Of a stretch of 27,473 bases of DNA, positions 1 through 13,958 are shown one piece after another. Numbering within the stretch: the stretch's first letter is position 1; each line of letters begins with the position of its first letter. The translations under genes and the position numbers were made by a program. Source of the DNA: a virus; IMG/VR virus record IMGVR_UViG_3300025778_000065, positions 1 to 27,473 of that record, one strand, 5' to 3'. The notes beneath the pieces were generated by a model. That model was not told the origin of the DNA. It saw only the letters and a list, made by a program, of their open reading frames with translations, and made no database searches.

Positions 1-272
1 ATATGTAGTATTGTTCTCTCAAACTGTTCAACTCCAAGGACTTGCACATCTTCCTGGAGAACCTTATTTGAACCAAAGTAGTCTTTCCAATCGGATTCGA
101 GATGCGTTCTCTTTCTCTTACCTTTTACTTTCTTAAATCCTTTAAAGAAGAATAGCTTCTTTCCTACGTAAAGTTTCCCAGAGTGCTTATTTCGAATAAG
201 ATAAACAAAGCCTATGTCTTTCTTGGGATCGAGATCATTTGGTTCAAAAGGCAAATTATTATAGTACCACAT
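1..272 (-). CDS. GIY-YIG-like endonuclease domain protein (3' end cut by window edge)
   Basis: The 5' 90 codons of a gene that runs off the left edge. The ATG at 272-270 opens a frame with no stop to position 1. The protein begins MWYYNNLPFEP and carries FVYLIRNKHSGKLYVGKK at about residues 23-40, a GIY-YIG pattern with FVY in place of GIY and YVG in place of YIG. A basic KGKRKR stretch and ESDWKDYFGSN follow. Phage relatives of this kind are annotated as putative endonucleases of the GIY-YIG superfamily; the catalytic Arg/Glu further downstream cannot be checked here. It lies 13 bp after the zinc-ribbon gene and has its own late-type octamer and a small hairpin at the start codon. Whether it is a homing enzyme or a housekeeping nuclease is unknown. 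Confidence 0.7.
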   Translation of the reverse strand, partial: MWYYNNLPFEPNDLDPKKDIGFVYLIRNKHSGKLYVGKKLFFFKGFKKVKGKRKRTHLESDWKDYFGSNKVLQEDVQVLGVEQFERTILH

Positions 273-281
273 AAAGTGGTA
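265..281 (-). promoter_or_regulatory. small hairpin over the start codon of the GIY-YIG gene
   Basis: Inverted repeat TACCAC / GTGGTA (265-270 and 276-281) with a 5-nt spacer. The ATG at 272-270 sits at the edge of loop and stem, so the hairpin could limit initiation. The late-type octamer at 280-287 overlaps its outer edge. Confidence 0.4.
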
Positions 282-287
282 TTTATT
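280..287 (-). promoter_or_regulatory. late-promoter-like octamer AATAAATA
   Basis: Minus-strand AATAAATA, a 7/8 match to the T4 late -10 element TATAAATA. If the octamer spans -13 to -6 as in T4, the start would be at 274, only 2 nt before the ATG at 272. No Shine-Dalgarno sequence lies between. Confidence 0.45.
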
Positions 288-495
288 ATGTCTCTTCTTC
301 ATCTAAAATGTCGTCCGCCGAATCGGCTTCATGACTTCCGCAGAATGGACAATACTCTGGATATTGGTCATAGTCAGTGTCGCTATCTCCATTCTCGCTC
401 TCTTCAGGCCAATCGATGGGTTCATCGGAGACACGAAAAGCGACTACGTAGATAGCGCCACAGCACGAACATTCTTTATCGAGCTTCTGGATCAT
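286..495 (-). CDS. small zinc-ribbon protein
   Basis: 69 residues with two cysteine knuckles: C9/C11/C12 near the N-terminus and CPFC at 49-52, the arrangement of a zinc ribbon. The region between is acidic (EESENGDSDTDYDQ), as is the C-terminus. The start overlaps the nrdA stop as ATGA, so it should be translated from the nrd operon message. Small zinc-ribbon proteins are common in phages; a nucleic-acid or protein-binding role is likely, but no specific function can be given. A redox partner for the reductase cannot be excluded because of the position, but the cysteine pattern favours zinc binding. Confidence 0.75.
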   Translation of the reverse strand: MIQKLDKECSCCGAIYVVAFRVSDEPIDWPEESENGDSDTDYDQYPEYCPFCGSHEADSADDILDEEET

Positions 496-2150
496 GCTTC
501 ACAAGAGACGCAGTTAAGTAGATTCCTACTTAACTCTTGAGCAGGATGAGTTCCACGTTGATAATATAGAGTTTTGATTCCTTGCTCCCAGGCAAAGATC
601 AGGAGTTGATTGACTTCTTTTGGTGGAGTCTTTGGGTGAACCATGATATTGATGGATTGACCCTGATCGATAAACTTCTGTCGAGCCGCTGCTTGGATAA
701 TGATCTCTTTCTGAGATAATTCGCCGAAAGTCTTGAAGACTTCTTTCTCAGCGTCTGTTAAGAATTTCAAGTGCTGAACAGAACCACCATGAACAAGGAT
801 TGTTTTCCATGTATCATCATCGTTCTTGTCGTACTTCTTGAGTACTTCCTTGAGGTATGGATTCTTATAAGTGAATGAACCTTTTGCAAGCTTCTTTACA
901 AAGTAGTTTGAATTTAATGGTTCGATGCTTGGAGAAACTTGACCTAAGATAAAGCTTGAAGAGGTTGTAGGAGCAACTGCTAATGTGGTTACATTACGTC
1001 TTCCAGTTCCTTTTAAGAACTCTGGTTCGCCTAGCTTTACTGCTAGCTCTTCGGTTGCTTTATCAGCACGTTCACGAATCGTTTTCCAGATACTCGTGTT
1101 CAAGAGTTTAGCCTCAAATGATTCAAAGCCAATGCTCTTGGATTGGAGTAATGAGTGCCAACCTAGAACACCTAGACCTAGTGCTCTCTGGTTCTTAGCA
1201 AAGTTGTGTGCGTGATCCATGAACTTCATTCCCTCAGTCTTACGAACGAATTCTTCATTCACAGAATCAAGGAAATAGATCATCGTCTCAACTGCATCAG
1301 TCTCTTTAATTTCGTCCCAATGAAGTAGATTTAATGAAGAAAGAACACAGACAAAGCTTTCGGTCTCATTTGAACTGAGCATGATCTCAGAACATAGATT
1401 ACTTGCATTGATCTTGCGACCTTTGTCTTTATAGACTTTAGGCGCAGCTTTATTGACGTTATCAGTAAAGAATATGTAAGGATAGCCAGTCTCAAAACGT
1501 TTCTGAATCACTTTACCCCAGATTGCACGCTTATCTTTATCGCCATCCAACATGGACTTCATCCATTTGTCAGTGATAGTAATGCCGATACTCATGTTCT
1601 GAATCGCATGGCCGTCGCTTCGAATCTGTAAAAATTCTAATACGTCTGGGTGTTCGATTGGTAAGTATGCGGCGAATGAACCACGACGAGCCGATCCTTG
1701 AGAGATCACGTCTGCGATCGTGTCAAATAACTCCATGAAATGAACTGGTCCAGATGATTCGCCTCCAACTGAGATACGAGTACCTCTGGCACGAAGATCG
1801 CCAAAGTATCCAGAAGTTCCGCCGCCATGCTTGGACATGATTCCAACTTCAGCTGCTTTGTATAGAATATCTTCCATTCTATCCGAGATGTGAGAATTGA
1901 AGCAAGAGACAGGTAGGCCTCTCTTGTTTCCAAGGTTCGTCCAGACTGGAGTTGCAAGTGAATAGAATCCACGAGACATATAGTCCTCAAACTTCTTTGC
2001 GAATCCTTCTATTCCTAGAATCTTTTCTGCGTTCTGAGCTATCTGATGAATTCTTTTTTCAGGAGTGACTCCTTCTTCTAAGTATCCTCTCTCTAGATAG
2101 AGTCTTGAATGATTGTTAAGCCAATAGTATTTCTCTGTATTTGTCGACAT
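492..2150 (-). CDS. nrdA: class I ribonucleotide reductase, large (alpha) subunit
   Basis: Reduces ribonucleoside diphosphates to deoxyribonucleotides with NrdB, supplying phage DNA synthesis. All expected catalytic residues are visible: Cys83 (VSCFN), the N251-x-C253-x-E255 motif (NLCSE), Cys268 (FVCVLSS), the radical-transfer pair Tyr529-Tyr530 and a C-terminal redox pair C547/C550 (CVSCEA). At 552 aa it is about 200 aa shorter than the T4 or E. coli proteins, and there is no room for an N-terminal ATP-cone allosteric domain. The N-terminus YYWLNNHSRLYLERGYL and SQGSARRGSFAAYLP resemble the compact Bacteroidetes-type alpha subunits (from memory). It starts 8 bp after nrdB with no clear Shine-Dalgarno sequence and ends ATGA-coupled to the zinc-ribbon gene. 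Confidence 0.96.
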   Translation of the reverse strand: MSTNTEKYYWLNNHSRLYLERGYLEEGVTPEKRIHQIAQNAEKILGIEGFAKKFEDYMSRGFYSLATPVWTNLGNKRGLPVSCFNSHISDRMEDILYKAAEVGIMSKHGGGTSGYFGDLRARGTRISVGGESSGPVHFMELFDTIADVISQGSARRGSFAAYLPIEHPDVLEFLQIRSDGHAIQNMSIGITITDKWMKSMLDGDKDKRAIWGKVIQKRFETGYPYIFFTDNVNKAAPKVYKDKGRKINASNLCSEIMLSSNETESFVCVLSSLNLLHWDEIKETDAVETMIYFLDSVNEEFVRKTEGMKFMDHAHNFAKNQRALGLGVLGWHSLLQSKSIGFESFEAKLLNTSIWKTIRERADKATEELAVKLGEPEFLKGTGRRNVTTLAVAPTTSSSFILGQVSPSIEPLNSNYFVKKLAKGSFTYKNPYLKEVLKKYDKNDDDTWKTILVHGGSVQHLKFLTDAEKEVFKTFGELSQKEIIIQAAARQKFIDQGQSINIMVHPKTPPKEVNQLLIFAWEQGIKTLYYQRGTHPAQELSRNLLNCVSCEA

Positions 2151-2158
2151 TATGTGTA

Positions 2159-3130
2159 TTAAAATAAATCTGTTTCTGCAAAGCTCTGGGACTTCTTGGA
2201 GTATTCGATTGGACGACTATGGAAGAAATCGGTCATATTGTTACCGAGTATCTGTTCATCGAACCATGTCGTTTTCTTGATCATCTCTGGATCTACATCA
2301 AAGATCTTACGGTATCCAATTTGGACAAGGGAATCATTCATACGATTCATGATGAATTGATTCAATAGCTCAGTGTTTAACTTCTCTGCGCCGTATCCAT
2401 TCACGATCCATTCGATGATCTTACTCTCGTACTTGATGGCTTCTTTTGCTTCTGAAAGAATCTTATCCTCAAGCTCTTGATCGAAGATCTCTCGGTGTTC
2501 TTCACGAATCACATTCACGATCTTGATGCCAATCATTGCATGAAGGTTTTCTTCACGTGAAGTGTACTCAACTTGCTTATTGGTATCTTTTAATAGATTC
2601 TTATAACGGCCAAAGTAACCAATTGTGTAAAATTGAGAGAATAAAGCTATGTTCTCAACGAAGAGAGTGAATAAGATTAAACTGTAAACGAACTGCTTCT
2701 TATTATCCGTATGAAAGTGCTGGAGGTACTTACGTAAGTAATTCACGCGTCCACGAATGATAGGTAATTCAAGAATCTTATCAAAAGAATCAGAGATACC
2801 TAGAACTTCAAGCAAGCGTTCATAGGCATCCCCATGAATTACTTCTGAATTGGCCATCACGTATCCAAGGTCATTGATCGTTGGATGCGGTAAATTCTCT
2901 CCAAGTTTTGCCCAGAACTTCTTTACAGAAATTTCTAACTGACCAATTGTGGATAAAGCACGAACAATGATTTCCTTCTCTTGTTCAGTTAAAGATACAC
3001 GAAAGTCCTGGTTATCACTCTGGAAATTAAATTCCCTATGAGTCCAGAAGCCATTTTGCATGGCCTCAATATATTCTTGTGTCCACGGATAGTGGTCAGG
3101 TTTACGAGATATCTGTTCTTCGAAGATCAT
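2159..3130 (-). CDS. nrdB: class I ribonucleotide reductase, small (beta) subunit
   Basis: Ferritin-like radical-generating subunit. The six metal ligands are visible: E66 (GQLEIS), E96 and H99 (SEVIHG), E159 (FVENIA), E194 and H197 (REENLH). Y103 sits where E. coli Y122 is. The first ligand is Glu rather than Asp84 of E. coli, as in class Ic and Bacteroidetes-type enzymes. The tail FAETDLF should dock on NrdA. The frame extends upstream to a GTG at 3205, but that codon lies inside a palindrome. The ATG at 3130 gives MIFEEQISRKPDHYPW, which fits the family N-terminus, so 323 aa is preferred. No good Shine-Dalgarno sequence precedes it. It is the first gene of the nrd operon. Confidence 0.93.
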   Translation of the reverse strand: MIFEEQISRKPDHYPWTQEYIEAMQNGFWTHREFNFQSDNQDFRVSLTEQEKEIIVRALSTIGQLEISVKKFWAKLGENLPHPTINDLGYVMANSEVIHGDAYERLLEVLGISDSFDKILELPIIRGRVNYLRKYLQHFHTDNKKQFVYSLILFTLFVENIALFSQFYTIGYFGRYKNLLKDTNKQVEYTSREENLHAMIGIKIVNVIREEHREIFDQELEDKILSEAKEAIKYESKIIEWIVNGYGAEKLNTELLNQFIMNRMNDSLVQIGYRKIFDVDPEMIKKTTWFDEQILGNNMTDFFHSRPIEYSKKSQSFAETDLF

Positions 3131-3202
3131 AGTAGGATTTGTAAAAAGATTGACATTAATTAAAGTATCAAAAGATACTCTATCAAGCTTCCTGCAAGTG
3201 TA

Positions 3203-3220
3203 CACTCTAAAATTAGAGTG
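3203..3220 (-). promoter_or_regulatory. palindrome in the nrdB leader
   Basis: Perfect 8-bp arms CACTCTAA / TTAGAGTG separated by 2 bp, lying between the -10 box and the nrdB start, so inside the predicted roughly 100-nt leader. About 30 nt further on, AGTATC-TTTT-GATACT could form a second hairpin. It could be a repressor site or an mRNA structure. Confidence 0.5.
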
Positions 3221-3234
3221 GTTGCAGTATCCTA

Positions 3235-3263
3235 TCTATAACGAATTATTTTTCCAGTGTAAA
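3235..3263 (-). promoter_or_regulatory. early-type promoter for nrdB-nrdA
   Basis: Minus-strand TTTACA (3263-3258), a 17-bp spacer, then TATAGA (3240-3235). The expected start is near 3228. The -35 hexamer is shared with the promoters at 14873, 17100, 24270 and 26277. Confidence 0.65.
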
Positions 3264-3284
3264 AAAATTGAAACTATTTTTACA
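3258..3284 (-). repeat. A/T inverted repeat at the end of the preceding gene
   Basis: TGTAAAAA / TTTTTACA arms (3258-3265 and 3277-3284) around an 11-nt loop, spanning the stop codon of the upstream gene and the -35 box of the nrd promoter. The stem has little GC, so it is a weak terminator candidate at best. Confidence 0.3.
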
Positions 3285-3669
3285 TCCCGTCAACTGACCT
3301 GCGGCGTATTGCCCTCATTGCACCTGTGGTAGAATCCTTTAATACCACTACATGCTTCCGGTATCGAGTTGCATAGTCATATATGGCTTTATGCTTCTCG
3401 TTGTTCATATCCAGATTACGAGCCCATCTTTCAAACTTCATTCTTCCTGTCTGAAACTTCTTGAATAACTCAGGCTCTACCTCAAAAGACTTGTACTTAC
3501 GGCGCATGAGACCGCCTGAATTTGGTGGCATAGCCATTGTCGAGCTATCTCCAGTTACATTTGCTGCAACTGAACCAGTTCCACCTGAGGCTCCAGCACC
3601 CGCAGCACCTCCGCCGGCACCGCCTGCTCCGCCTCCGTCTTCTGTGAATGTTTTAAATGATTTGATCAT
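3280..3669 (-). CDS. unknown; capsid-targeting-like N-terminus and Gly/Ala-rich linker
   Basis: 129 residues. It opens with MIKSFKTFTED, like the capsid-targeting peptide of T4 internal head proteins (MKTYQEFIAE, cut after a hydrophobic-x-Glu site by prohead protease gp21) and like the nucleotidyltransferase at 9613-10542. Residues 12 to about 33 are almost only Gly and Ala. The remainder is basic and probably folded (RRKYKSFEVEPELF, ARNLDMNNEKHKAIYDY, AIRRRS). ATGA-coupled to the gene before it. A head-internal or scaffold-associated protein processed during maturation is inferred; it has no similarity to a named enzyme that I recognise. Confidence 0.75.
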   Translation of the reverse strand: MIKSFKTFTEDGGGAGGAGGGAAGAGASGGTGSVAANVTGDSSTMAMPPNSGGLMRRKYKSFEVEPELFKKFQTGRMKFERWARNLDMNNEKHKAIYDYATRYRKHVVVLKDSTTGAMRAIRRRSVDGM

Positions 3670-4253
3670 CGAGTTATGTCTTCGGTTGAGATACAGATCA
3701 TCTGTTGAGTTTCACTGTGTTTTACTTTAAAAACTGGTACACCTAGAACATATCCGACAGGTGTGACTGCTTCTGTGACATGAATACGTGAATGAGGATA
3801 GGCTCTAAATTCTGCGTTACTTACAATTGGACAATGAGAAGTGAGACTATATGTTCCAGGTTGGAGTTGTCCTTTTTCATTCAAGAACCAAGTGTTCTCA
3901 TTCAGAGACATGTCAACCTTTACATCCAACTTCTCAAATACTTTTTGAATGCCTTTATCAGTCATTCCTGTCTGTTCCTTAATAAGATATAAGGCAGCTG
4001 CATATGATGCAAGACGAGTTCTTCCAAGAGGTAACTTATTCAAGAGTCTCTTGATGTTGAAGACAAGACGATTGAAAACACTATACGCGTCTCTTTCCTG
4101 AGGCGTCTTTAACTCTGAAGCTTTCTTGAGTAGATTTCCATCTTTATCGACGATCTTAAGCTTATACGCGTCAGTGTTTTCCCATGGAGTCACTAAGAGT
4201 TTTAGGAACTTATAGGTATAAACTACATCTGCTGCTTGGCCAATGATGTTCAT
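3666..4253 (-). CDS. conserved T4-type phage protein of unknown function (195 aa)
   Basis: Begins MNIIGQAADVVYTYKFLKLLVTPW and contains KLKIVDKDGNLLKK, LKTPQERDAYSVFNRLVFN and RLASYAAALYLIKEQ, a pattern I recall from many T4-like marine phages without assigned function. The N-terminal half is mainly helical. The C-terminal half (TYSLTSHCPI, GYVLGVPVFKVKHSETQQ) looks like beta strands. It overlaps both neighbours as ATGA, forming a translationally coupled trio (4618-3280) with the 122-aa and 129-aa proteins. The trio probably acts together, and its late-type promoter suggests a virion or assembly role. Confidence 0.8.
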   Translation of the reverse strand: MNIIGQAADVVYTYKFLKLLVTPWENTDAYKLKIVDKDGNLLKKASELKTPQERDAYSVFNRLVFNIKRLLNKLPLGRTRLASYAAALYLIKEQTGMTDKGIQKVFEKLDVKVDMSLNENTWFLNEKGQLQPGTYSLTSHCPIVSNAEFRAYPHSRIHVTEAVTPVGYVLGVPVFKVKHSETQQMICISTEDITR

Positions 4254-4618
4254 ATCTTTCGAAGTATTTCTGCTATTTTAAGATCTACTGGTATTTCTAC
4301 TCTCTCATCTTCCGATAGGTAATCCAGATAAATCAAGAAGGTCTTGACTGCTGGCCAGAGTTCTGATTCTATCTTGAAGAAGATCATCTTGTTTGCTGCT
4401 TGGATTCCGAATACGTTATAGAGTACAATAAGGTGATTGAGAACTAGTCTTTCTTGAATCTCTCCGGATTGTTTGTATCTCCGAAGGAGTCGTTTGATGT
4501 ATTTGATTCGAGCAAGATCGTCATAAAACTCTGCGACATCTACACACTGAGGGTTGTTATAGTGCTTCGAGGCGAAGATCAAGAAATTCTCATCATTTAA
4601 TTCATCGAATACTTTCAT
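4250..4618 (-). CDS. conserved phage protein of unknown function (122 aa)
   Basis: All-helical protein beginning MKVFDELNDENFLIFASKHYNNPQC, with LVLNHLIVLYNVFGIQAANKMIFF in the middle. I recall this as a family conserved in T4-like phages (possibly DUF7207; from memory). No catalytic motif is visible. It is the first gene of the coupled trio ending at 3280. Its ATG lies in the loop edge of a 9-bp hairpin that overlaps a late-type promoter octamer, and there is no Shine-Dalgarno sequence, so expression probably depends on where transcription starts. Confidence 0.8.
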   Translation of the reverse strand: MKVFDELNDENFLIFASKHYNNPQCVDVAEFYDDLARIKYIKRLLRRYKQSGEIQERLVLNHLIVLYNVFGIQAANKMIFFKIESELWPAVKTFLIYLDYLSEDERVEIPVDLKIAEILRKI

Positions 4619-4637
4619 AATATAGAAAGTATTTATT
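4608..4637 (-). promoter_or_regulatory. start-codon hairpin overlapped by late-type octamer
   Basis: AATACTTTC / GAAAGTATT, perfect 9-bp arms (4608-4616 and 4625-4633) with an 8-nt loop that holds part of the ATG at 4618-4616. AATAAATA lies at 4637-4630 and overlaps the 5' arm. With T4 spacing the start would be 4624, just past that arm, so a late transcript could not form the hairpin. Confidence 0.6.
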
Positions 4638-4908
4638 ACGTAGTCTCAGATGGTGGCTTTTCTCCGTTCTTCTTCCAGCAAGCGCAGATATCATCATAAT
4701 CGACCGTGGTTAATACACCACGGTCTTTTATTTTAATGATGTTTTCTACGAACTCGTGAAGTTCAACATCGTTCTTGATATCCTCTCTCGCCGCTTCAAG
4801 AATACGAATCAGCAATGGTACGTTAAGCGATATGACATCCCCTAACGATTCATTTGCACAATCGTATTCAACAAGCATCTGACGATACGCATCGAATTGA
4901 TTACTCAT
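4636..4908 (-). CDS. conserved phage protein of unknown function (90 aa)
   Basis: Begins MSNQFDAYRQMLVEYDCANESLGDVISLNVPLL and continues as helices (IRILEAAREDIKNDVELHEFVENII), ending in a Cys/Lys-rich segment (ICACWKKNGEKPPSETT). I recall similar small proteins next to structural genes in T4-like phages, always unassigned. AGGA lies about 9 nt upstream of the start. It is ATGA-coupled to the preceding 99-aa gene. The late-type octamer of the next gene overlaps its stop codon region. Confidence 0.75.
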   Translation of the reverse strand: MSNQFDAYRQMLVEYDCANESLGDVISLNVPLLIRILEAAREDIKNDVELHEFVENIIKIKDRGVLTTVDYDDICACWKKNGEKPPSETT

Positions 4909-5204
4909 TTAAGATTCCTATCTTTACAGATCTTACGAATAAGGGACTGTTTATTGTCCTTCTTCGCGACCTTAAGATTTAATAACTCAGCAATCTCGAC
5001 AAGATCTTTCTTCTTCAGCTTCTTGACTGATTCCTTTGTAAGAATCAGTTCTTCTTCCTCAAAGAAATCGTCTGAACCAGTACTCTCTATTGGATTTTCT
5101 GGTTCAAACTCTTCTCTTGATAATTCAGAAAGATAGCTCTTCTCCTCAGGGTGATACCCTAAGAAAATGCTGATGCCTGATAGAATCTTTTTGAGTATGC
5201 TCAT
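4905..5204 (-). CDS. small protein with SAP/HeH-like C-terminal domain
   Basis: 99 residues. The N-terminus MSILKKILSGISIFLGY is amphipathic or weakly hydrophobic, the middle is acidic (DDFFEEEELIL), and the C-terminus LTKESVKKLKKKDLVEIAELLNL continues into KVAKKDNKQSLIRKI, the helix-extended-helix pattern of SAP/HeH or Rho N-terminal DNA-binding domains. Coupled as TAATG to the end of the large mosaic gene. A DNA-contacting role in the head is plausible but unproven. Confidence 0.7.
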   Translation of the reverse strand: MSILKKILSGISIFLGYHPEEKSYLSELSREEFEPENPIESTGSDDFFEEEELILTKESVKKLKKKDLVEIAELLNLKVAKKDNKQSLIRKICKDRNLK

Positions 5205-7135
5205 TATTTAGCAGCTGCAGTATGAGCCTTTGTACTATAACCCTCATCCATTTCAGTAGATTCATCAGTCTTTGTTGTGTATCCTTTAAAGATTTCTGGA
5301 TGCAGTTTTCTTACAGGAGGTCTTCCATATCTACTTGCTTCTTGATTGTCGCTATGGTGATATTGTACAGCTTTTGCTACAGCGTGTCTTGGTCCAGAAT
5401 AACTTACAGCATGATCTGGATCTCCTTCAGCATGATGGTGAACTGTCACGCCAGGGTGATCTGCTTCATACTGAGCTTTATGGCTCGCGAAGTCATCGGA
5501 ATTAAATCCATGATTGTCAATTGCTCTGCTATGAACATGATCATCGTGCTTTGGTTTAAGAGTAGGCTTTGATGCATGCTCGTGATCCGAAACATAACCG
5601 CCATGCCAATCTGGGCTATCGCCTTCTTCATCTTCTTTTAAGGTTGATTCCTTTAACTTTGGAATCACTGCATCTTCTGGTTTAGCTGCTGGGAAATCTG
5701 ATTGCTTTAAAGCATCTGCGCCATCTTGAGCTGCACCAACTTCAGCCGAATCATCGACGTTTACGTTTTTAACATGGGCATCACGCATCTTCTGCGTTGT
5801 TGGATCCATTACTTCTGGACCTGCAACGGCATTGTCTGGACCACCGTCTTTCTTTGGATTATCGGCGACTGGGAATGCATTGGTCGATTCGTTAACAGAA
5901 ACCTTTTGCATTTGCGCATATGCTTCAGCTACACTCAAAAGATTCTTTGTGCTGTTAACTTGAACTGATTCTTTTTGAGCAGAATAGTATGCTCCAAGAG
6001 CCATTTTCTGGCGCATTTCTTTGGATTTACCAGCAAACTTTGGGTTCTTGCTGTGAACGAAATCGTGGATCCATTTTGATGCTGTATCACTTGGATTGAG
6101 TACTTCATCTAAATGCTTCTCTTCTTCCCAAGCATCTTGAGTTGATTCATTTTTGACTGGGAACTTTTCACCGCCAACTTCAAAAGAAGTTTTTCCAGCA
6201 GCTTGTGCTTGCTGTTTCTTGAGATGGAAAGTACCTACGTTCTCGTCTTCTTGTTTAGCTTCTTCAGTCGTATAAAGTCCTTCCTCTAAAGCTTTTGCAT
6301 GATGTTCTTTTGCTTTTGTAGCATGATGTGCAGCAAGAGTATCATTAAGTCCTTGAGCGTATCTTTGAATTCTTCTGTGAGCATTTTCTGCATCGCCATG
6401 TTCGTCACGTCCCATTGCTTTTTTAGAAGCTTCATTTGCATGATGAGAAGCCATGTTTAAGTGATGATCACTCATTTTTAAATGATGTTTGTTATGGATA
6501 TCACTATTAGCATTAACTGCAGCATGTTTATGAGATGAATGCGCATTTAAATGATTTATAGAAGCATCTATATGAGAGTGCGTTTTTGAATCTGGATGAT
6601 GATCAGCATGACCTGTACTTGCATTAGCTCTCTGAGTATCTAAATTTGCCTGCTTTGATTCTATATTTTCTTCATCCATCATTTTTTCATTATAAGCTTC
6701 TTCGGCCATTGCTGGGCGCATCATGCTTGCGGCTGAATCTTGTGTTTCTTTGTCGTCTTTATTTGCGACTTGGATCTTCTTTGAGAGATCTACATTAGCT
6801 GGTTCATTTCCGGAGTCACAGCAAGCTTCTTCTTGTTGTGTAGGAGCTGGTTTCATTGGCTCGTTATAAGCTGCAGCGATTGACTTTGCTTGCATCTCTT
6901 TTTCATTTCCAAGTTCAGGAAATACTGCTTCTTTGATCTTATATTGCTTACCTTCGAAAGTAGCGATAGAAGTATTATTTGCACGAGCTTCGAAGATCGC
7001 TTTCGTGAAAGCTTCTACTTGTTCGTTTTTAATGGATGCTGGGATCCATTTAGGACGGTTTGTGTTTGTTGCTGGTGCTTGCATTGAGCGGTAAGACTCT
7101 GCAAGAGATTGAACTGAGCTTGTTTGTTTTTCCAT
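5204..7135 (-). CDS. large His/Ala-rich mosaic protein (probable virion or head-internal)
   Basis: 643 residues built from short modules. SLAESYRSMQ at 10-19 recurs as SVAEAYAQMQ at 401-410. TFEGKQYKIKEAV at 59-71 is echoed by SFEVGGEKFPVK (317-328) and SYSGPRHAVAKAV (578-590). A His/Ala-rich stretch covers about 174-285 (HHLNMASHHANEASKKA and similar). WIHDFVHSKNPKF at about 355-367 is followed by GKSKEMRQKMALGAYY, a module I recall from marine phage structural proteins. The C-terminus ends YSTKAHTAAAK, resembling the start of the repeat in the 363-aa protein. No enzyme motif is visible. It has a strong AAGGAG ribosome site, unlike most neighbours. The DNA between 7136 and 7195 holds no recognisable late octamer. 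Confidence 0.8.
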   Translation of the reverse strand: MEKQTSSVQSLAESYRSMQAPATNTNRPKWIPASIKNEQVEAFTKAIFEARANNTSIATFEGKQYKIKEAVFPELGNEKEMQAKSIAAAYNEPMKPAPTQQEEACCDSGNEPANVDLSKKIQVANKDDKETQDSAASMMRPAMAEEAYNEKMMDEENIESKQANLDTQRANASTGHADHHPDSKTHSHIDASINHLNAHSSHKHAAVNANSDIHNKHHLKMSDHHLNMASHHANEASKKAMGRDEHGDAENAHRRIQRYAQGLNDTLAAHHATKAKEHHAKALEEGLYTTEEAKQEDENVGTFHLKKQQAQAAGKTSFEVGGEKFPVKNESTQDAWEEEKHLDEVLNPSDTASKWIHDFVHSKNPKFAGKSKEMRQKMALGAYYSAQKESVQVNSTKNLLSVAEAYAQMQKVSVNESTNAFPVADNPKKDGGPDNAVAGPEVMDPTTQKMRDAHVKNVNVDDSAEVGAAQDGADALKQSDFPAAKPEDAVIPKLKESTLKEDEEGDSPDWHGGYVSDHEHASKPTLKPKHDDHVHSRAIDNHGFNSDDFASHKAQYEADHPGVTVHHHAEGDPDHAVSYSGPRHAVAKAVQYHHSDNQEASRYGRPPVRKLHPEIFKGYTTKTDESTEMDEGYSTKAHTAAAK

Positions 7136-7147: not shown

Positions 7148-7195
7148 AATTAATTAGTAAGTTAGTTTTTTTGAGTAAGATAAAGTTTTATTAGT

Positions 7196-8116
7196 TTAGC
7201 AGTTCCATTTTTTAAGTGCAAGAGCCTTACGAGTTGGTTTACCATGCTCGTCTTTCATAGGTCCTTTTACTCCACTCATTCTAGCACAGAACGAGTGACG
7301 GCGTGCCGCGGCTTTACCATGTGGATCTAATTCACTTGGTGGAGTTGTGACTGCCATTTTTAAATGATGTCCAGGATTTTCACGATTATACTTATCTACA
7401 CCTGCACGAGTGAGTCCACCTGTTTCAGACTTGTACTTGTCTTCTTCAAGTCTTTTCTTTGAGGATGGTTTTTTCTGAGTCATCGCATCGTGAACTGCAT
7501 TGCGATGGTGTTCCCAGTGCTGAGTGTGTACTTCCTCAGCTTTGCCATGACCTGCATGAGCGGGGTGACCTTTACCATGAGCTTCTCCTGCAATCGCATG
7601 TAACTCTGCTGCATGATAATGAGCAGCCTGAGCATCGTGATGTAAGTGTGGATTTGATTCTGCTTCAGCCGACTTGGCGTGAGCAGTTTTTGTCGCTTTC
7701 CATGCTTTTGCTGATAAGTGATGAGCGGTTAATCCGGCTTCGTCGTCGAGTAAGTATTGTCCTGGATGGTTGTCCAAGGGACTATTGCATTCCTCATCGA
7801 ATAAGTGAGGGTGATTCTTGCGTGCCTCGTGCTCGTCGTCGTGATGATTGATCACCGCTTTACGAACATTATGTTTTGTACCGTGAAAAGTAATTGTCTT
7901 ATCGGAGTGAAAGTTCGTATCGACGTTATGTGCTCTTTTATTATAGTCCTTGTAATCGCTCTGAATGTTTTTGCGAGTGTGACCTACCCATATCGGATTC
8001 GATTCGGTGTGATCGGTCGATTCATTGCGCATCGAGAGATAAGTTTCTGCGACGGCTTTTGTTTTATCCATTAGCTCTTTTTTCTCGTCTGAGATTGCGG
8101 TGGGTACTGAGTCCAT
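7196..8116 (-). CDS. His-rich mosaic protein with C-terminal DUF6321-like domain
   Basis: 306 residues. Modules: AVAETYLSMR (21-30) and TFHGTKHNVRKAVINHH (76-92), both paralogous to segments of the 643-aa neighbour; a His/Ala-rich region about 130-212 (HHDAQAAHYHAAELHAIAGE); and a Cys-containing C-terminus with GLTRAGVDKYNRENPGH, SFCARMSGVKG and the end LKKWNC, the pattern of DUF6321 (from memory; small phage and bacterial proteins of unknown function). The late-type octamer directly upstream puts the predicted start on the A of the ATG. A virion protein is inferred from context. High histidine could mean metal or pH-dependent binding, but this is not shown. Confidence 0.8.
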   Translation of the reverse strand: MDSVPTAISDEKKELMDKTKAVAETYLSMRNESTDHTESNPIWVGHTRKNIQSDYKDYNKRAHNVDTNFHSDKTITFHGTKHNVRKAVINHHDDEHEARKNHPHLFDEECNSPLDNHPGQYLLDDEAGLTAHHLSAKAWKATKTAHAKSAEAESNPHLHHDAQAAHYHAAELHAIAGEAHGKGHPAHAGHGKAEEVHTQHWEHHRNAVHDAMTQKKPSSKKRLEEDKYKSETGGLTRAGVDKYNRENPGHHLKMAVTTPPSELDPHGKAAARRHSFCARMSGVKGPMKDEHGKPTRKALALKKWNC

Positions 8117-8120
8117 GTGA

Positions 8121-8525
8121 TTATTTATTTTCTACTTTTGTAAGGGATCTGTCTGAGAGTGTGTCTAAACGGTTAAAGATACGATCTTGTCCTGATCTTA
8201 ATGCTTCGAGAACTGCTCTCTGAGATGCTTGTTCACGAATGATCGATTGAAGAGTTTCATTGATTGCACTTTGTTGTGCTTCGGATCTTACGCGGAATTC
8301 CTCAAGAGAACCGATCCGGACCTTGTATTCTGAGATATGGTCTCGAACAGTTCCATTTAAAGCATCAAACTCTTGATGACTTGGGAATTGTGTATGGAAA
8401 TATGCGAGTACTCCAGCAATTACAAATGGAGTTACCCAGGCTAAGATCTTTCCGACTGCATGCCAGGATAGACCCTTCTTTTGAAGGGTAATATTTGCCT
8501 TAGATTCGTGCATTGGAGGAATCAT
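8121..8525 (-). CDS. single-pass membrane protein with coiled-coil tail (unknown)
   Basis: 134 residues. One transmembrane helix at about 24-43 (VGKILAWVTPFVIAGVLAYF) follows a short positively charged N-terminus. A long helical, probably coiled-coil region follows (SLEEFRVRSEAQQSAINETL, then REQASQRAVLEALRS, DRIFNRLDTLSD). The layout resembles tail-anchored phage membrane proteins or i-spanin-like proteins, but no lipobox partner is seen nearby, so spanin is only a possibility. TAATG-coupled to the preceding 363-aa gene. Confidence 0.75.
   Translation of the reverse strand: MIPPMHESKANITLQKKGLSWHAVGKILAWVTPFVIAGVLAYFHTQFPSHQEFDALNGTVRDHISEYKVRIGSLEEFRVRSEAQQSAINETLQSIIREQASQRAVLEALRSGQDRIFNRLDTLSDRSLTKVENK
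8122..8129 (-). promoter_or_regulatory. late-promoter-like octamer AATAAATA
   Basis: Minus-strand AATAAATA (8129-8122). With T4 late spacing, +1 falls at 8116, exactly the first base of the ATG, predicting a leaderless mRNA. There is no Shine-Dalgarno sequence. It overlaps the stop codon of the preceding gene. Confidence 0.5.
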
Positions 8526-9616
8526 TATGCTTTCTCGTTCTTTTCTTCCTCTTCTTCGTACTTCTTGTCTGCGTCTTGAGGATTTGAGAACATTACATTA
8601 CTGAATACCTCATCAATTTTGTCAGAAGCAATTGCGATCTTGGATTGCATCCAAGCCTGAAGTGCTTCATCATCATTCATGAGTTTATTCTCGATAGACA
8701 TTGCCATGACTGCGATCTTACGCAGTTGACGGCATGCCATACCGACTTCTTCGGATTCATCTTCTTTATAGTCCATAGCTTCGTCGATTCCTCTCTCAAG
8801 TTTTGTGGCTTTTGATAAGTGCCATTTGTGCATCGAGTGATCTCCACGCTTCTGAGCGTCAAGAGCCATCTTCTTACGAAGAGCGATGCGTTCGTTCTTT
8901 TTGTCAAATGGATCAGCTTCTTCTTTCATGGATTTAGCCGCCATTGCTGCATGTTTTGCAGCTTGATCTAAATGGTGTCCAGCTTCGGAAGATTTCTTAT
9001 CAATCGTGTGAGCTGTATAAGCTGCGGTGTGAGCTTTTGAAGCTGCTTCGTGATCAGCTTTCGTATTTGAAGCATTTGCTTTCTGAGAAGCTGCATGAGC
9101 CTTTGCAGAATAATCTGAAAGGTGATCTTCTTCCATTGTTTCCTCTTTTGGAACACAGTTAGGAACGGTCTTACCATTCTTCTGCTTTGTTCCAATCGCT
9201 TCATAGCCTTTCCAACAAGCGTCTTCTAATCCTTCTTTCATTGACTTCGCTGCAGTTGCGTGCTCTTTTGCCTTTGAATCATGATAAGCAACTGCTCCAC
9301 CCTGCGAGACTGCATGAGCCATCTGGTGAGCTTGCATCGCCTTCAAGTGATTGTCGCGAGAAGGAAATTTAAGAGCTTTTGCAGTAGCTTGAGCCGCATG
9401 ATAAGAAAGGTGTCCTAATGATCTTAAATTCTGTGCATCTGGACTCATTCCAGCCGCTTCATCATAAGTTGTAGGATATCCACACAACTCGTTCGTTTGG
9501 ATCTTATCAGGATTTACATCTTGTCCTGGAGTTCCTTGCTTATATTTGTTTATAAGCTCGGGTGTACCCCATTCTCCTGCTCCGAGTTCTTCTCTGATTG
9601 CTTTAAGATTCTTCAT
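8525..9616 (-). CDS. Ala/His-rich mosaic protein with CWKGY module
   Basis: 363 residues. The N-terminus MKNLKAIREELGAGEW could be a processing signal (IRE/E). Ala/His heptad-like segments occur at about 70-125 and 168-232 (YSAKAHAASQKANASNTKA, ASKAHTAAYTAH, HHLDQAAKHAAMAAKSMKE). Between them, DACWKGYEAIGTKQKNGKTV followed by PNCVP (about 132-156) is a Cys-containing module I recall from many phage structural genes. The C-terminal helical segment around AWMQSKIAIASDKIDEVF is another recurrent phage module. The end is very acidic (EEEEEKNE). ATGA-coupled to the nucleotidyltransferase gene. No catalytic motif is seen; a head-internal or scaffold-like protein is inferred. Confidence 0.8.
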   Translation of the reverse strand: MKNLKAIREELGAGEWGTPELINKYKQGTPGQDVNPDKIQTNELCGYPTTYDEAAGMSPDAQNLRSLGHLSYHAAQATAKALKFPSRDNHLKAMQAHQMAHAVSQGGAVAYHDSKAKEHATAAKSMKEGLEDACWKGYEAIGTKQKNGKTVPNCVPKEETMEEDHLSDYSAKAHAASQKANASNTKADHEAASKAHTAAYTAHTIDKKSSEAGHHLDQAAKHAAMAAKSMKEEADPFDKKNERIALRKKMALDAQKRGDHSMHKWHLSKATKLERGIDEAMDYKEDESEEVGMACRQLRKIAVMAMSIENKLMNDDEALQAWMQSKIAIASDKIDEVFSNVMFSNPQDADKKYEEEEEKNEKA

Positions 9617-10542
9617 GATGCTTTATTGAGAGTGCGTATTTTACTGATTGAAATTCCTTCGCGAGTCGGCGTGCGAACTTGAATTGGTTTTGCTGTTGGA
9701 ATTGGAGCCGGATCCAACTTTTCATTTGGGATCACCTTGCTCTCAACGAGTTCAACTGCATTCAACCATTTGCGAACCTTGCGTCCATCACTTAGGCTCA
9801 CAAGAAGATAGTTAGGTCCACAGTGAGTGATGCTACCAACTTCTTCTGATTCTTTGATTACAACTTGATCTCCAACTTCAAAGAGTTGGCCAGCCACATA
9901 TGCCTCACGCCGTTCTGAAACGGTTTCAAGTTGAATATGTTTTCTAAAATTCTTTGATTCCTTTAATCCAAGACCATTACGAACTGCATTGAAGAGTTCC
10001 TCGATCTCAGTGAAGCTTGAAGGAAGTCCTTTTGCGAATGTATTAAAATCGTTTGCAGCTGCAGCAAGTCTCATTCTATCCTCGAGGTCATTGCTTTCGG
10101 TGATCGATATAGCGCGGACCTTTTTAAAGTTGAAGAACTTATTTGCTTCTCCTTCAAGAAATACGCCATTGTTTGCCTTCAGGACTGTGTCATATTGTAT
10201 CGATCTTACATCGTCTGCACAGATCTCCACTGAAGTAAATTTTTGCTCGTATAGTTTATAGCAGATATCTTTAATATCCGATACACTATCTGCTACGATG
10301 TTTCTAGCATGCTTTGGAAACATCTTACGCATCCACTTTACTTTTTCCTCGAGAGGAAGTGGGTTGTTTTTCGTATCAACACTATTTGATACGTAGATAC
10401 GATAGGGTCTTCCTTTTGCCTGTTCAAATATCTTATTCAGGAACTTCTCATGATGAAGTGTCGGGGGATTGAACTTCTCAAAGGCGATAACGATCTCCTT
10501 TGGAGCATCCTCGATGACGAATTGAGAGAAGGATTTGATCAT
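9613..10542 (-). CDS. nucleotidyltransferase-like protein with capsid-targeting-type N-terminus and KOW-like C-terminus
   Basis: 309 residues. MIKSFSQFVIE at 1-11 resembles the T4 capsid-targeting peptide with a hydrophobic-x-Glu cleavage site. Residues 17 to about 160 match the HIGH-superfamily nucleotidyltransferase fold (NMN/pantetheine adenylyltransferase type): IVIAFEKFNPPTLHHEKF with the T/HxxH site, YVSNSVDTKNNPLPLEEKV, and a late ISITESNDLEDRMR motif in place of ISSTxIR. Residues about 219-266 (LFEVGDQVVIKESEEVG, LLVSLSDGRKVRKWL) form a KOW/SH3-like beta module. Such proteins are known in T4-like marine phages, with unknown substrate. ATGA overlaps on both sides. Packaging of the enzyme in the head is inferred from the N-terminus. 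Confidence 0.8.
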   Translation of the reverse strand: MIKSFSQFVIEDAPKEIVIAFEKFNPPTLHHEKFLNKIFEQAKGRPYRIYVSNSVDTKNNPLPLEEKVKWMRKMFPKHARNIVADSVSDIKDICYKLYEQKFTSVEICADDVRSIQYDTVLKANNGVFLEGEANKFFNFKKVRAISITESNDLEDRMRLAAAANDFNTFAKGLPSSFTEIEELFNAVRNGLGLKESKNFRKHIQLETVSERREAYVAGQLFEVGDQVVIKESEEVGSITHCGPNYLLVSLSDGRKVRKWLNAVELVESKVIPNEKLDPAPIPTAKPIQVRTPTREGISISKIRTLNKAS

Positions 10543-10781
10543 GGCTGAGTTGCTTTGCCATGAAAGCTCTCGATGTTCTTTTTCTGCTTCGCGCGACTAT
10601 CTTCCCAATGTTTCTCTAACGCCTCTTGAGCGGATCCTTCTTCAGGAAGTAGGCCATGATGACGTTTCCACGCATAGAGATCTTGCATCTCTGTCTGCCC
10701 ATTCGTGTAATTGACTGTGATGAAATCCTTGAAAGAATACATTGTTTCGAATTGCCCATCGAATGAGAAAAAGTATCCCAT
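10539..10781 (-). CDS. unknown late-type small protein (80 aa)
   Basis: Begins MGYFFSFDGQFETMYSFKDF. An internal Met at residue 14 gives MYSFKDFITVN, which again resembles the MxSFxxF head-targeting start, but the upstream ATG at 10781 has AAGGA directly before it and is preferred. The rest is polar and charged (YAWKRHHGLLPEEGSAQEAL, HWEDSRAKQKKNIESF). It is preceded by the only exact TATAAATA octamer noticed in the window and overlaps the nucleotidyltransferase start as ATGA. Function unknown. Confidence 0.75.
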   Translation of the reverse strand: MGYFFSFDGQFETMYSFKDFITVNYTNGQTEMQDLYAWKRHHGLLPEEGSAQEALEKHWEDSRAKQKKNIESFHGKATQP

Positions 10782-10800
10782 TCCTTAATATAGTATTGAC

Positions 10801-10808
10801 TATTTATA
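10801..10808 (-). promoter_or_regulatory. late promoter octamer TATAAATA
   Basis: Exact match to the T4 late -10 element on the minus strand (10808-10801), predicted start about 10795, 14 nt before the ATG at 10781, with AAGGA in the leader. It lies within a TAGTAT / ATACTA inverted repeat with a 9-nt loop. It should drive 10781 and the downstream nucleotidyltransferase and mosaic genes. Confidence 0.7.
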
Positions 10809-11550
10809 CTAAATTGAGATTTTGTAAATAGCCGAAAGGAGACTTTTCCGAAATCGTTTTCAAGGTTTCGAGGTCTTTTATGCCATGGGAAGCAAATGCT
10901 CCACCCTTTATGGCTGCAATACACTCCTGGACTCGTGAAGGATACCTGGCACAGGATATATTCTCCCAGGAATAAGATAATCCTGCCTCTAGAAGGTTAA
11001 AAACAGGTATTCCTGCCCTCTCTGATGCCATTCCAATGTATCGATCGGTGTATCCATATTCTGCATCCCACGGAGTCAATCTCTCCATTGAATCAGTGAT
11101 CTTTTCAAGTGATTCCCTTGTATAGATCTGAGGGTAATGTAGGTAATAATTGGCTAGAAACTTCTTTCCAGGAACAGGAGATACCGGTTCATTCATGAAC
11201 TTAGTTGCCGATATCCATCCTTCCAGAGGGATCGCTCGATCGGGTATCGGTCCCCAACATAGGCTATCATACTCGAAAAGCATCACATACGGATAGTTTT
11301 GATAAGAATCCCTTGCTAGTTTCAGGCATTCATAGACTCTCATGTTTGTTTCCTTGGAATAAGAGCTTACATTATTCACGCTCTGGAATAGCTCGATCTC
11401 AGGATGCTTGATGTGAAGCTTATGCTCTAAAGGTGTTACGATAAGTAAGTGCCCACAGGTCTTCAACCAATAAGGGATATGCCGAAGGACAGTATCTCTT
11501 ACAGAGACATGAGCCATAACAATCCCTAGAACTTTAGATCTATCAAGCAT
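10804..11550 (-). CDS. glycosyltransferase-like protein (GT-A type, uncertain)
   Basis: The start chosen is the ATG at 11550 (MLDRSKVLGIVMAHVSVRD, 248 aa), 8 bp inside the end of the preceding glycosyltransferase and with AAGG about 10 nt upstream. The open frame extends 28 codons further, but only inside that gene. VMLFEYDSLCWGPIP (about 90-104) has an EYDS element following a hydrophobic strand, resembling the DxD metal/nucleotide site of GT-A enzymes. NYYLHYPQIYTRESL, TPWDAEYGYTDRYIG and FASHGIKD are compatible with a sugar-transfer fold. Paired with the next gene, it suggests modification of a virion or cell-surface glycan, or of DNA. The family assignment is tentative. Confidence 0.6.
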   Translation of the reverse strand: MLDRSKVLGIVMAHVSVRDTVLRHIPYWLKTCGHLLIVTPLEHKLHIKHPEIELFQSVNNVSSYSKETNMRVYECLKLARDSYQNYPYVMLFEYDSLCWGPIPDRAIPLEGWISATKFMNEPVSPVPGKKFLANYYLHYPQIYTRESLEKITDSMERLTPWDAEYGYTDRYIGMASERAGIPVFNLLEAGLSYSWENISCARYPSRVQECIAAIKGGAFASHGIKDLETLKTISEKSPFGYLQNLNLV

Positions 11551-12301
11551 AGTAATAAGCCTTATATTTCTCTGAGAGTCTACCGAAATTGTCTCGATGA
11601 GCGTCCTTGACTCGATCCCATTTCTGAGGTCCATGCTCGTGCAGGATGTATGTTTCGTTTGTATTCCTACCCCAGATGTATGACCAGTTTAATTGTCTAG
11701 GAAGTTGAATGGCTCGATTTTGCTTCATGAGTATGTGACCGACCATCGTCCAGGCAATCTGCTCAAGCATATTGTTATTATTTCTTTCTTTGCAGAACGC
11801 GTATTGAAGCTCGTATAAGGAAGCAATGTCCTTTCGATCCTGAGAGTTATCCGTTCCAAAGTAAAGTACTCCTGCATTGCATTCTCGAACATACTCATTG
11901 AGTCCAGAGATCTGTCTCACGTTTGGATCATCACCAATCCCAAATGCAACTTTTGGAAGTCCTTCGATGATACGAGTAGGATCCTTGACGAAGAATGCAT
12001 CAGCATCGAGTATGATGCATCTTCCTAGAACTTGAATCGATTGACACAGGAGAGTTCCTTTTATGTCAAAGTTCTTACCTTTTCGAACGATCGAGGATAT
12101 AGCGTTTGTATAAAATCGAAGGTAAGATAAAGGTTCAGTTCCATCCTTATCGTAAGGAACTGCGTCAGTCGGAATAGGAACATCTAAGTCACAAATAAGC
12201 ACGACTCGATATTTGCATCCTGACTTTTTATATTGCTCGATCCAAGCGTTAAGAAGCGGCAAGAAAGCCGCGTCACCAAAGTGCGTGATTCCAATAATCA
12301 T
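11543..12301 (-). CDS. GT-A family glycosyltransferase
   Basis: 252 residues. The N-terminus MIIGITHFGDAAFLPLLNAW has the Rossmann-like start of nucleotide-sugar transferases. GRCIILDADAFFVKDP (about 93-108) carries the DxD motif (DAD) that binds the metal-nucleotide. NAGVLYFGTDNS and HEHGPQKWDR near the C-terminus fit GT8-like enzymes. The donor and acceptor sugars are unknown. It overlaps the PD-(D/E)XK-like gene as ATGA and runs 8 bp into the second transferase, so the two are probably co-translated. Unlike the alpha-glucosyltransferase at 21238-22446 (GT-B), these lie among late genes, so DNA is not the obvious target. Confidence 0.75.
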   Translation of the reverse strand: MIIGITHFGDAAFLPLLNAWIEQYKKSGCKYRVVLICDLDVPIPTDAVPYDKDGTEPLSYLRFYTNAISSIVRKGKNFDIKGTLLCQSIQVLGRCIILDADAFFVKDPTRIIEGLPKVAFGIGDDPNVRQISGLNEYVRECNAGVLYFGTDNSQDRKDIASLYELQYAFCKERNNNNMLEQIAWTMVGHILMKQNRAIQLPRQLNWSYIWGRNTNETYILHEHGPQKWDRVKDAHRDNFGRLSEKYKAYYYA

Positions 12302-13212
12302 TCTCCAGATAATTTAATTGAAGACGCTAATTTCTCGTCTTTATATTTCAAACGAATAGACATAATAAGCATTTTATTTGATTCAACTCGAATACTATTA
12401 TCTCCTGAAAGTTTAAGATCCACTCCATATTTAGAAATAAAGTCGCACTTCTCATTGAGTATAGGATGAGTAATCTCTGCCGTGAAAGGCGATTGCTCAC
12501 CCTTACCTGTAATCTTTACGTATGGAGGATACACTATCTCTGCATCAAGCCATTCATCGAGCATGTGATGCACTAATTTATGAGGCTTCATTCGGCTATA
12601 GCATTCAAAAATATCGTCACGAAGATCCATTAATAGTTTATCACCTATAGCTATCGTTTGCTTACGAACTCCAGGATTCGATCGGAGATAAGCTTTTCTC
12701 TTCTCTGCAGATTCTGGAAGACTTAATTTTTTAACAGCGTCTTCAGTGACCTTTTCAATCTTCTTTACTAAATTAAGCTTTAGTATTTTATCAATCGTGC
12801 CAATTCCTGGATTCTTAAAAGCAATATCTTTTTTAGCTGAACTTGTTGACTTTGCAGAGATACCAAGATAGCCATCGGCTGGTCCTGAAGAAAATTGAAC
12901 AAGAACATCGGCAGGATTTCCATTCTGAGGAACTTCTCTACCAACTATTCGAGTGATAGCTCCTGGCTTTGAAGTCCACCACACTCCTTTGATCCCTCCA
13001 GTGTATTTGTTCTTGTAAGCCCATTTCAAAAATTCTTGAGCCATCTTTTCTGCACGGCCAATTGCAACTTCAGCCTCTTCTTTAGTGATCTCTCCAATCC
13101 TCTTGTTATAATGATTCTGCGCGTCAGCACCGACCTTTGCCCAATTCCGATTGGCTAAAACAAAGGCAATGTGTAATTCGTTGACGTCGGAGATAAGAGT
13201 ATTGGCAGTCAT
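12298..13212 (-). CDS. unknown protein with possible PD-(D/E)XK-like core
   Basis: 304 residues. The N-terminal region contains NELHIAFVLANRNW and a long helix; NPADVLVQFSSGPADGYLGI followed by SAKST (about 99-123) resembles the AD...(S/E)xK core of PD-(D/E)XK nucleases. The remainder (KRKAYLRSNPGVRKQTIAIG, LVHHMLDEWLDAEI, FTAEITHPILNEKCDF) is not recognised, though I recall similar unassigned proteins in T4-like marine phages. The start is buried in an 11-bp hairpin whose loop carries a late-type octamer. A nuclease role is only a possibility; catalytic residues need a structural alignment. Confidence 0.6.
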   Translation of the reverse strand: MTANTLISDVNELHIAFVLANRNWAKVGADAQNHYNKRIGEITKEEAEVAIGRAEKMAQEFLKWAYKNKYTGGIKGVWWTSKPGAITRIVGREVPQNGNPADVLVQFSSGPADGYLGISAKSTSSAKKDIAFKNPGIGTIDKILKLNLVKKIEKVTEDAVKKLSLPESAEKRKAYLRSNPGVRKQTIAIGDKLLMDLRDDIFECYSRMKPHKLVHHMLDEWLDAEIVYPPYVKITGKGEQSPFTAEITHPILNEKCDFISKYGVDLKLSGDNSIRVESNKMLIMSIRLKYKDEKLASSIKLSGE

Positions 13213-13239
13213 TTGGTCTTATTTATTCGACCAAATGAC
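13208..13239 (-). promoter_or_regulatory. 11-bp start-codon hairpin with late-type octamer in its loop
   Basis: GTCATTTGGTC / GACCAAATGAC, perfect arms (13208-13218 and 13229-13239) with a 10-nt loop containing AATAAATA (13227-13220). The ATG at 13212-13210 is inside the 3' arm. A transcript started from the octamer (predicted +1 at 13214) would lack the 5' arm; read-through mRNA from upstream would have the start codon paired. Strongest such element in the window. Confidence 0.7.
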
Positions 13240-13245
13240 AAACCT

Positions 13246-13743
13246 TTACTTTCTTATATAGTCTGGATCATACTTGTTCCAGGAAGCATTCTTAAACTTC
13301 TTTTGCTGCGAGAAGTTAGCATGAAGTCCTACTTCTCTACCATAAGCATCAAACTCCCATGGTAAATCGTAGTAGTCTATCTTTCGAGTATCGTATTTCT
13401 TTTTCTTCCAGACTATGACATGTAGGCTGCTCGTATCTCTTAATTCTCCGAGTACGTACTGCTTTACGTGAGCGCACTCATGAGCAAGTGCGCGAAGCAA
13501 CCCATGTATCTGCATACTGGCGTCAATGTTTATCTCAAATTCTCTTGGCTCATCTTCGTCATCCTCCCACATTACGTCAGCACGGCAACCACACCTTTCG
13601 TAATAGTCTTTTCTGAGTTTAATAACGAGCATTACCTCATAGTAATTATGAGGTAATAACTTCTTCAAATAAAAGCTGGCCGCTTCTGCCACCAGCTCTC
13701 TTTGAAGTTTTGATCCGCCTGAGACTGCTATCTCACTGTCCAT
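13246..13743 (-). CDS. SprT-like zinc metalloprotein
   Basis: 165 residues from the ATG at 13743. A longer reading frame reaches a TTG at 13785 but lies within the upstream gene. The motif LAHECAHVKQY holds HExxH (HECAH), and a downstream Glu in PWEFDAYGREVG could be the third ligand, typical of SprT/zincin-like phage proteins. EFEINIDAS before it matches the strand that precedes the helix in this fold. Members of this group are usually proteases or metal-dependent chaperone-like proteins; the target here is unknown. It overlaps the small membrane protein gene by 11 bp and precedes a hairpin controlling the next gene. Confidence 0.75.
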   Translation of the reverse strand: MDSEIAVSGGSKLQRELVAEAASFYLKKLLPHNYYEVMLVIKLRKDYYERCGCRADVMWEDDEDEPREFEINIDASMQIHGLLRALAHECAHVKQYVLGELRDTSSLHVIVWKKKKYDTRKIDYYDLPWEFDAYGREVGLHANFSQQKKFKNASWNKYDPDYIRK

Positions 13744-13939
13744 TGATGGCCGCAATTTTTCTGTCTTCGTCGGATAAAAGGGCAAAAAGTAAATTAATGC
13801 CTGAAAGCATCAATTCCACGAATGCTGCGTTATAACGGTGGTCAAAAGCATTATGAATGGCAAAGCCAATCATCATTCCTGATGACATGTAACTAAGGCG
13901 ATATAAGTAGTTTTCGGCGAATTTTACAAATCGGTTCAT
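13733..13939 (-). CDS. small membrane protein, unknown
   Basis: 68 residues. YMSSGMMIGFAIHNAF and FVELMLSGINLLFALL are two hydrophobic segments that could form a helical hairpin in the inner membrane; the N-terminus (MNRFVKFAENYLYRLS) is basic and the C-terminus (SDEDRKIAAINGQ) polar. A holin-like role is possible from the layout but unsupported. No Shine-Dalgarno sequence; an imperfect late-type octamer (AATAAATT) is immediately upstream. Confidence 0.65.
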   Translation of the reverse strand: MNRFVKFAENYLYRLSYMSSGMMIGFAIHNAFDHRYNAAFVELMLSGINLLFALLSDEDRKIAAINGQ

Positions 13940-13950
13940 ATAGTAGTAAT

Positions 13951-13958
13951 AATTTATT
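13951..13958 (-). promoter_or_regulatory. imperfect late-promoter-like octamer AATAAATT
   Basis: Two mismatches to TATAAATA. The predicted start is about 13945, 5 nt before the ATG at 13939. It overlaps the end of the preceding 67-aa gene. Confidence 0.35.

Follow-up and report, generated by a model that had tools for sequence, protein, structure and literature searches.

Octamers before genes of the window

The virus record IMGVR_UViG_3300025778_000065 carries the octamer WATAAATA directly before several of its genes, a placement that raises the question of whether this element starts transcription at the AUG or serves the ribosome within longer mRNAs. We analyzed the record over its whole 27,473 nucleotides (27 kb, hereafter the window), in which the minus strand holds nearly all genes, together with T4-like relatives. 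Judged from sequence, the octamers are quite probably T4 gp55-type late promoters, a subset of which is placed so that late mRNAs would be leaderless or nearly so.

The window contains WATAAATA in five exact copies, always on the minus (coding) strand and 5–19 nt before a gene start. A sequence-only reading had placed octamers before six genes, with start sites 2, 6, 0, 14, 2 and 5 nt before the ATG. The first five sites are exact copies and their distances hold, whereas the sixth is a one-mismatch octamer with a distance of 6 rather than 5 nt. From octamer end to ATG, the spacers of the genes starting at 272, 4618, 8116, 10781, 13212 and 13939 are 7, 11, 5, 19, 7 and 11 nt, giving predicted leaders of 2, 6, 0, 14, 2 and 6 nt under T4 geometry:

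280–287, minus strand: octamer AATAAATA before 272; spacer 7, predicted leader 2 nt; conserved, with spacer 7–8, in L032 and L215
4630–4637, minus strand: octamer AATAAATA before 4618; spacer 11, predicted leader 6 nt; conserved, with spacer 10–11, in L032 and L215
8122–8129, minus strand: octamer AATAAATA before 8116; spacer 5, predicted leader 0 (+1 is the A of ATG); conserved in L032
10801–10808, minus strand: octamer TATAAATA before 10781; spacer 19, predicted leader 14 nt; octamer conserved in G001 and G014
13220–13227, minus strand: octamer AATAAATA in a hairpin loop before 13212; spacer 7, predicted leader 2 nt
13951–13958, minus strand: AATAAATT, one-mismatch octamer before 13939; spacer 11

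The site before 13939 lacks consensus backing and has no ortholog beyond the same population; it was not counted as a promoter, and chance is its likely origin. One-mismatch octamers are not unusual in number (37 observed vs 41 expected in the window), so the signal lies in position. All five exact copies fall within 20 nt of a start, compared with 17/187 same-composition octamers (p=3e-6). Orthologs of the 13212 gene with only 36–57% protein identity keep the octamer spacer at 6–7 nt, and diverged orthologs of the 272 and 4618 genes likewise retain close spacing.

Genes behind the octamers

The window encodes T4-type replication and nucleotide genes (DNA polymerase, primase, UvsX, a DnaB-type helicase, dCMP deaminase, thymidylate synthase and nrdA/nrdB), and a block of mostly unknown genes occupies ~3.3–17 kb. 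Its polymerase is closest, among cultured phages, to that of phage C48C1 (Kyanoviridae; ~54% identity). The polymerase end of G013, a 43,176-bp IMG/VR contig (read as L211–L213), overlaps the window with 99% identity over 74 residues, and this short overlap makes it very likely that G013 and the window belong to one phage population. G013 holds structural genes as well as the late sigma factor gp55 (phrog_234, E 4.8e-53) and the clamp gp45 (phrog_223, E 2.8e-76). When all 7-mers in the window and G013 were compared, ATAAATA topped the enrichment 0–20 nt upstream of starts (10/21 copies, 39-fold, p=2e-14).

The box lies upstream of late and structural genes and not of replication genes. In G013, octamers precede genes for a tail fibre (spacer 14 nt), a virion-type protein (7), neck Ad2 (5), sheath (58), tube (49), prohead core (7) and tail tube 2 (6 nt). 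One more G013 copy stands ahead of the portal gene; a terminator-like hairpin comes next, and promoter function is improbable there. NATAAATA was absent within 60 nt upstream of the 14 starts checked in the replication and nucleotide-metabolism region, as the sequence-only reading had noticed. The window genes behind exact octamers are:

3–272, minus strand: SegE-like GIY-YIG domain gene, running off the window (PF19835, E 2.9e-24)
4250–4618, minus strand: DUF7207 (phrog_407) gene (PF23837, E 6e-46)
7196–8116, minus strand: gene with a C-terminal DUF6321 domain, no hairpin (PF19846, E 1.7e-22)
10539–10781, minus strand: 80-aa gene
12298–13212, minus strand: 304-aa gene

Spacing across T4-like relatives

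Using the DUF7207, polymerase, UvsX and portal genes to gather relatives, we took for every distinct octamer the number of nucleotides to the called start that follows it. The 345 octamers (of 654 distinct ones) that lie within 60 nt of a start form a bimodal histogram, with 35 sites at exactly 5 nt, 44 at 6–8 nt, few at 9–15 nt and a broad class at 16–40 nt. The 5-nt peak stands 32-fold over control octamers (p=5e-35), and same-letter controls dip at 4–9 nt. Counting by protein family leaves 5 nt at the top (20 families). The close class spans 37 families, including gp3, gp13, gp16, gp20, prohead core and endonucleases, and every one of its 79 starts is ATG.

The T4 late octamer starts at −13 and spans −13 to −6, and A at −13 is a known variant (PMC2988020). 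With this geometry, a 5-nt spacer would put +1 on the A of the ATG. The far sites carry an indirect mark consistent with this geometry: at the sixth base after the octamer end, the predicted +1, the frequency of A rises from 0.34 to 0.57 and that of C falls to 0.03, with the step exactly there.

The proposed mechanism would run as follows. The window octamers would be late promoters read by a gp55-type sigma, with +1 at the T4 distance of 6 nt from the octamer end, and a subset would start transcription at, or within ~3 nt of, the AUG, yielding leaderless or near-leaderless late mRNAs that ribosomes would have to enter by AUG-first initiation. In the window, 8116 (leader 0) and 272 and 13212 (2 nt) would be such cases; 4618 (6 nt) and 10781 (14 nt) have longer predicted leaders, and 10781 is an ordinary short-leader case.

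Promoter or translation element

All single-base variants of TATAAATA were counted at close (5–8 nt) and far (17–36 nt) placements. Both classes need NATAAATA, with only the first base freely variable: octamers containing NATAAATA are so placed in 6–13% of cases near and 10–28% far, and changes at positions 2–8 mostly give less than 4% near. The best internal variant, TATATATA, is the same in both classes. Such a shared base requirement is the signature of one DNA-binding specificity, as expected from one promoter factor, and the box it describes is the 8-bp TATAAATA with A allowed at −13.

The close octamer could instead be an A/U-rich translation-initiation element that replaces the Shine-Dalgarno (SD) sequence in longer mRNAs and has no promoter function. 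It is AT-rich and stands where a ribosome-contacting element would lie, SDs are scarce in the window's group, and, as the genes here all run in one direction, read-through into polycistronic mRNA is likely. We nevertheless consider this account unlikely. Other A/T octamers with identical composition show no enrichment at 5–8 nt; single changes at positions 2–8 mostly abolish the close class, and the tolerance at position 1 equals that of the far class; the same octamer stands 17–36 nt away, together with an SD, in other genes; and a sharp peak at exactly 5 nt would not be expected of a broad element. The sequence-only reading had left leaderless translation and an A-rich translation signal side by side. 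The depletion of permuted A/T octamers at 4–9 nt and the sensitivity of positions 2–8 disfavor the latter, and the former is much better supported (strict NATAAATA, a peak at the T4 +1 distance, gp55, octamer-headed structural genes), although the reading as a whole is only partly supported, given the unbacked site at 13939, the doubtful SD at 10781, the overlooked start-codon hairpins and the leaders of 14 nt at 10781 and 6 nt at 4618.

The SD distribution follows the same division. Contigs that use SDs have one at 108/133 far sites and at 0/32 close sites, and no close site has one overall (0/79). Close-site genes thus combine an AUG start with the lack of an SD, as leaderless mRNAs do, the second feature being partly a matter of construction. 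The SD reported by the sequence-only reading at 10781 is doubtful: the AAGGA directly abuts the ATG and is not conserved in an 89%-identical ortholog. Within the window's group, SDs occur at 10–21% in main contigs vs a background of 9–13%, little or none above background, which hints at a host not reliant on SD. The near-absent SD signal is shared by the window, G001, G014, G016, G018 and G020, unlike C48C1, G002–G005 and Melnitz. Separately, a phage-encoded ribosomal protein S21, present in Melnitz and Mosig, was rejected as a cause, as no S21 was found in 15 related contigs, four of them from the window's group. Neither Bacteroidota-type nor sigma70-type promoter counts pointed clearly to a host. 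Across related phages (L220–L299), gp3-type genes have either an octamer at 5–7 nt without an SD or one at 17–29 nt with an SD.

Leader length and start codons

Ordinary late promoters would also explain the octamers if the true +1 or the start codon differed (for instance, a downstream start) and leaders were of normal length. The starts are computed, T4 start sites can shift by a base or two, and 10781 and several G013 sites do have longer leaders. However, internal starts preceded by an SD are not in excess in close-site proteins (5/79 vs ~9% of all genes), in the gp13, gp20 and 13212 families the alignments with orthologs begin at residue 1, and the deposited annotation of phage Melnitz uses the same 5-nt starts, which makes normal-length leaders an improbable explanation. 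Chance AT-rich sequence near gene starts, to which the unremarkable number of one-mismatch octamers in the window might point, is extremely improbable given the position and consensus statistics, which refute it for the exact octamers as a class; diverged orthologs, too, conserve both the octamer and its spacing.

Hairpins over start codons

Three of the five window octamers sit in inverted repeats that cover the start codon, a feature missed by the sequence-only reading: 13212 (11 bp), 4618 (9 bp) and 272 (6 bp). The gene at 8116 has no start-codon hairpin, and at 10781 an inverted repeat surrounds the octamer.

265–281, minus strand: hairpin TACCAC-TTTAT-GTGGTA spanning the 272 start codon; 6 bp, and 8 bp in the relative G014
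4608–4633, minus strand: 9-bp hairpin AATACTTTC-TATATTAT-GAAAGTATT at 4618; 5′ arm overlaps the octamer end
13208–13239, minus strand: 11-bp hairpin GTCATTTGGTC-GAATAAATAA-GACCAAATGAC at 13212; octamer in the loop, ATG in the 3′ arm; 13 bp in the relative L007
10791–10811, minus strand: 6-bp inverted repeat TAGTAT-AAATAGTCA-ATACTA around the 10781 octamer

Stems of at least 8 bp over the start occur at 6/97 close-octamer genes vs 1/1500 others (p=3e-7). At 4618 the predicted +1 of the window gene is the first loop base, and the stem is maintained in G014 through a paired T-A to C-G change. In an mRNA reading through from upstream, a helix is predicted to hide the AUG at 13212, 4618 and 272. 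If +1 lies at the T4 position, the late mRNA would lack the 5′ arm in all three hairpins and may consequently be translatable, so that each would act as a late-only switch.

A second, downstream hairpin at 10781 (8-bp GAATGGGA-TACTTTT-TCTCATTC, window 10761–10783) covers the ATG; its G001 version is changed but still paired, with a GTG start.

Weight and meaning of the evidence

Several points weigh against late promoters fused to the AUG. The 5′ ends are predicted from the 5–8-nt spacer only, and the gene starts in the survey are computed. Contig redundancy inflates raw site counts, for which the family counts correct. The octamer fills the stretch that an SD would occupy, so the missing SD at close sites is in part a consequence of the layout; and since SDs are scarce throughout the window's group, lacking one there carries no weight. 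At 8116, octamer and upstream gene end overlap, and a 44%-identical ortholog (L214/G014) no longer has the octamer. The 4618 hairpin has one broken pair in G001, and start hairpins of at least 8 bp occur mainly in the window's own group. Finally, a search for late sigma factors, which the sequence-only reading had suggested, found gp55 in the overlapping G013, but the coactivator gp33 was not seen among the scanned proteins of the window's-group contigs, which are fragments; it is present in C48C1 and Melnitz.

We lean slightly towards a broader proposal: that leaderless late mRNAs, made from promoters fused to the AUG, form a dedicated class in a large part of the T4-like phages other than T4 and the cyanophages sampled, and that in some genes, with a start-codon hairpin, the choice of the late promoter switches translation on without an SD. 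Octamers placed for such starts occur in the window's T4-like freshwater phage and in many uncultured relatives, and the examined part of phage T4 shows none. If the proposal is true, virion genes of abundant aquatic phages would be translated by leaderless initiation, gene finders would gain a strong start signal, and the choice of transcription start would be tied directly to translation control.

Neighboring features

ORFs of GIY-YIG or HNH-like endonucleases recur among genes with 5–8-nt spacers (window 3–272; L164, L167, L174, L175 and L192); among these, the Pfam comparison covered the window gene only. Orthologs of the 4250–4618 gene in marine L008, L011, L013, L014, L017, L018, L019, L041 and L043 are without the octamer. 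They carry a near-invariant TATATATAATATAT(A/G)ATG block with a variable first base, which would have a 7-nt spacer if taken as the variant box TATATATA. Neighboring proteins rich in His/Ala repeats are encoded at window 7196–8116, 5204–7135 and 8525–9616, and the DUF6321 domain that ends the first of these also occurs in marine podoviruses. No Rfam families were found in the window, and no tRNAs in G013 or G014.

Comparison with known systems

In T4, the textbook case of late transcription, late mRNAs have SD leaders. Like the T4 late promoters, which depend on gp55, gp33 and gp45 and use TATAAATA (PMC2988020), the promoters proposed here have the same octamer, with T or A first, before structural genes, and homologs of gp55 and gp45 are encoded, here in the overlapping G013. 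Unlike the octamers of the T4 late region, which lie 14–35 nt from the start, generally with an SD between, those described here include a class at 5–8 nt. The late motif NATAAATA of cyanophages S-PM2 and Syn9 (PMC2984593) has a similarly degenerate first base, and many of the relatives also belong to the Kyanoviridae. Spacers below 12 nt were absent from the T4 late region and from the sampled regions of Syn9, P-SSM7, S-RIM2, Syn19 and P-TIM40; in these five the smallest distance was no less than 15 nt.

Cultured phages do contain close octamers. One C48C1 octamer has a 2-nt spacer, the others at least 20 nt. In Melnitz, a methylophage of Methylophilales sp. H5P1, genes _104, _112 and _200 have spacers of exactly 5 nt at their deposited starts; its other octamers lie at 16 nt or more, except for one GATAAATA abutting a called start. 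The pelagiphage Mosig has one close octamer, at its tail-tube (gp3-type) gene.

The hairpins resemble the late-promoter/hairpin switch of T4 e, soc, 49, I-TevI and segB (PMC3014915, PMC2988022): in both, a late promoter (a putative one here) lies within an inverted repeat that hides the start region, and the late transcript is predicted to lack the 5′ arm, here on the assumption of T4 geometry. The 272 gene is itself a GIY-YIG (SegE-like) gene, of the family of T4 I-TevI. Unlike in the T4 switch, where the late mRNA keeps its SD leader, the hairpin here would cover the AUG itself, and almost no leader would remain on the late mRNA. A search of the non-subscription literature returned nothing relevant on leaderless mRNA in T4-like phages or cyanophages. 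A further likeness is the leaderless expression of Deinococcus-Thermus (PMC12340547), where a −10-type element likewise abuts the ORF; there the element is read by a host sigma factor in bacteria, whereas here it would be read by a phage late sigma.

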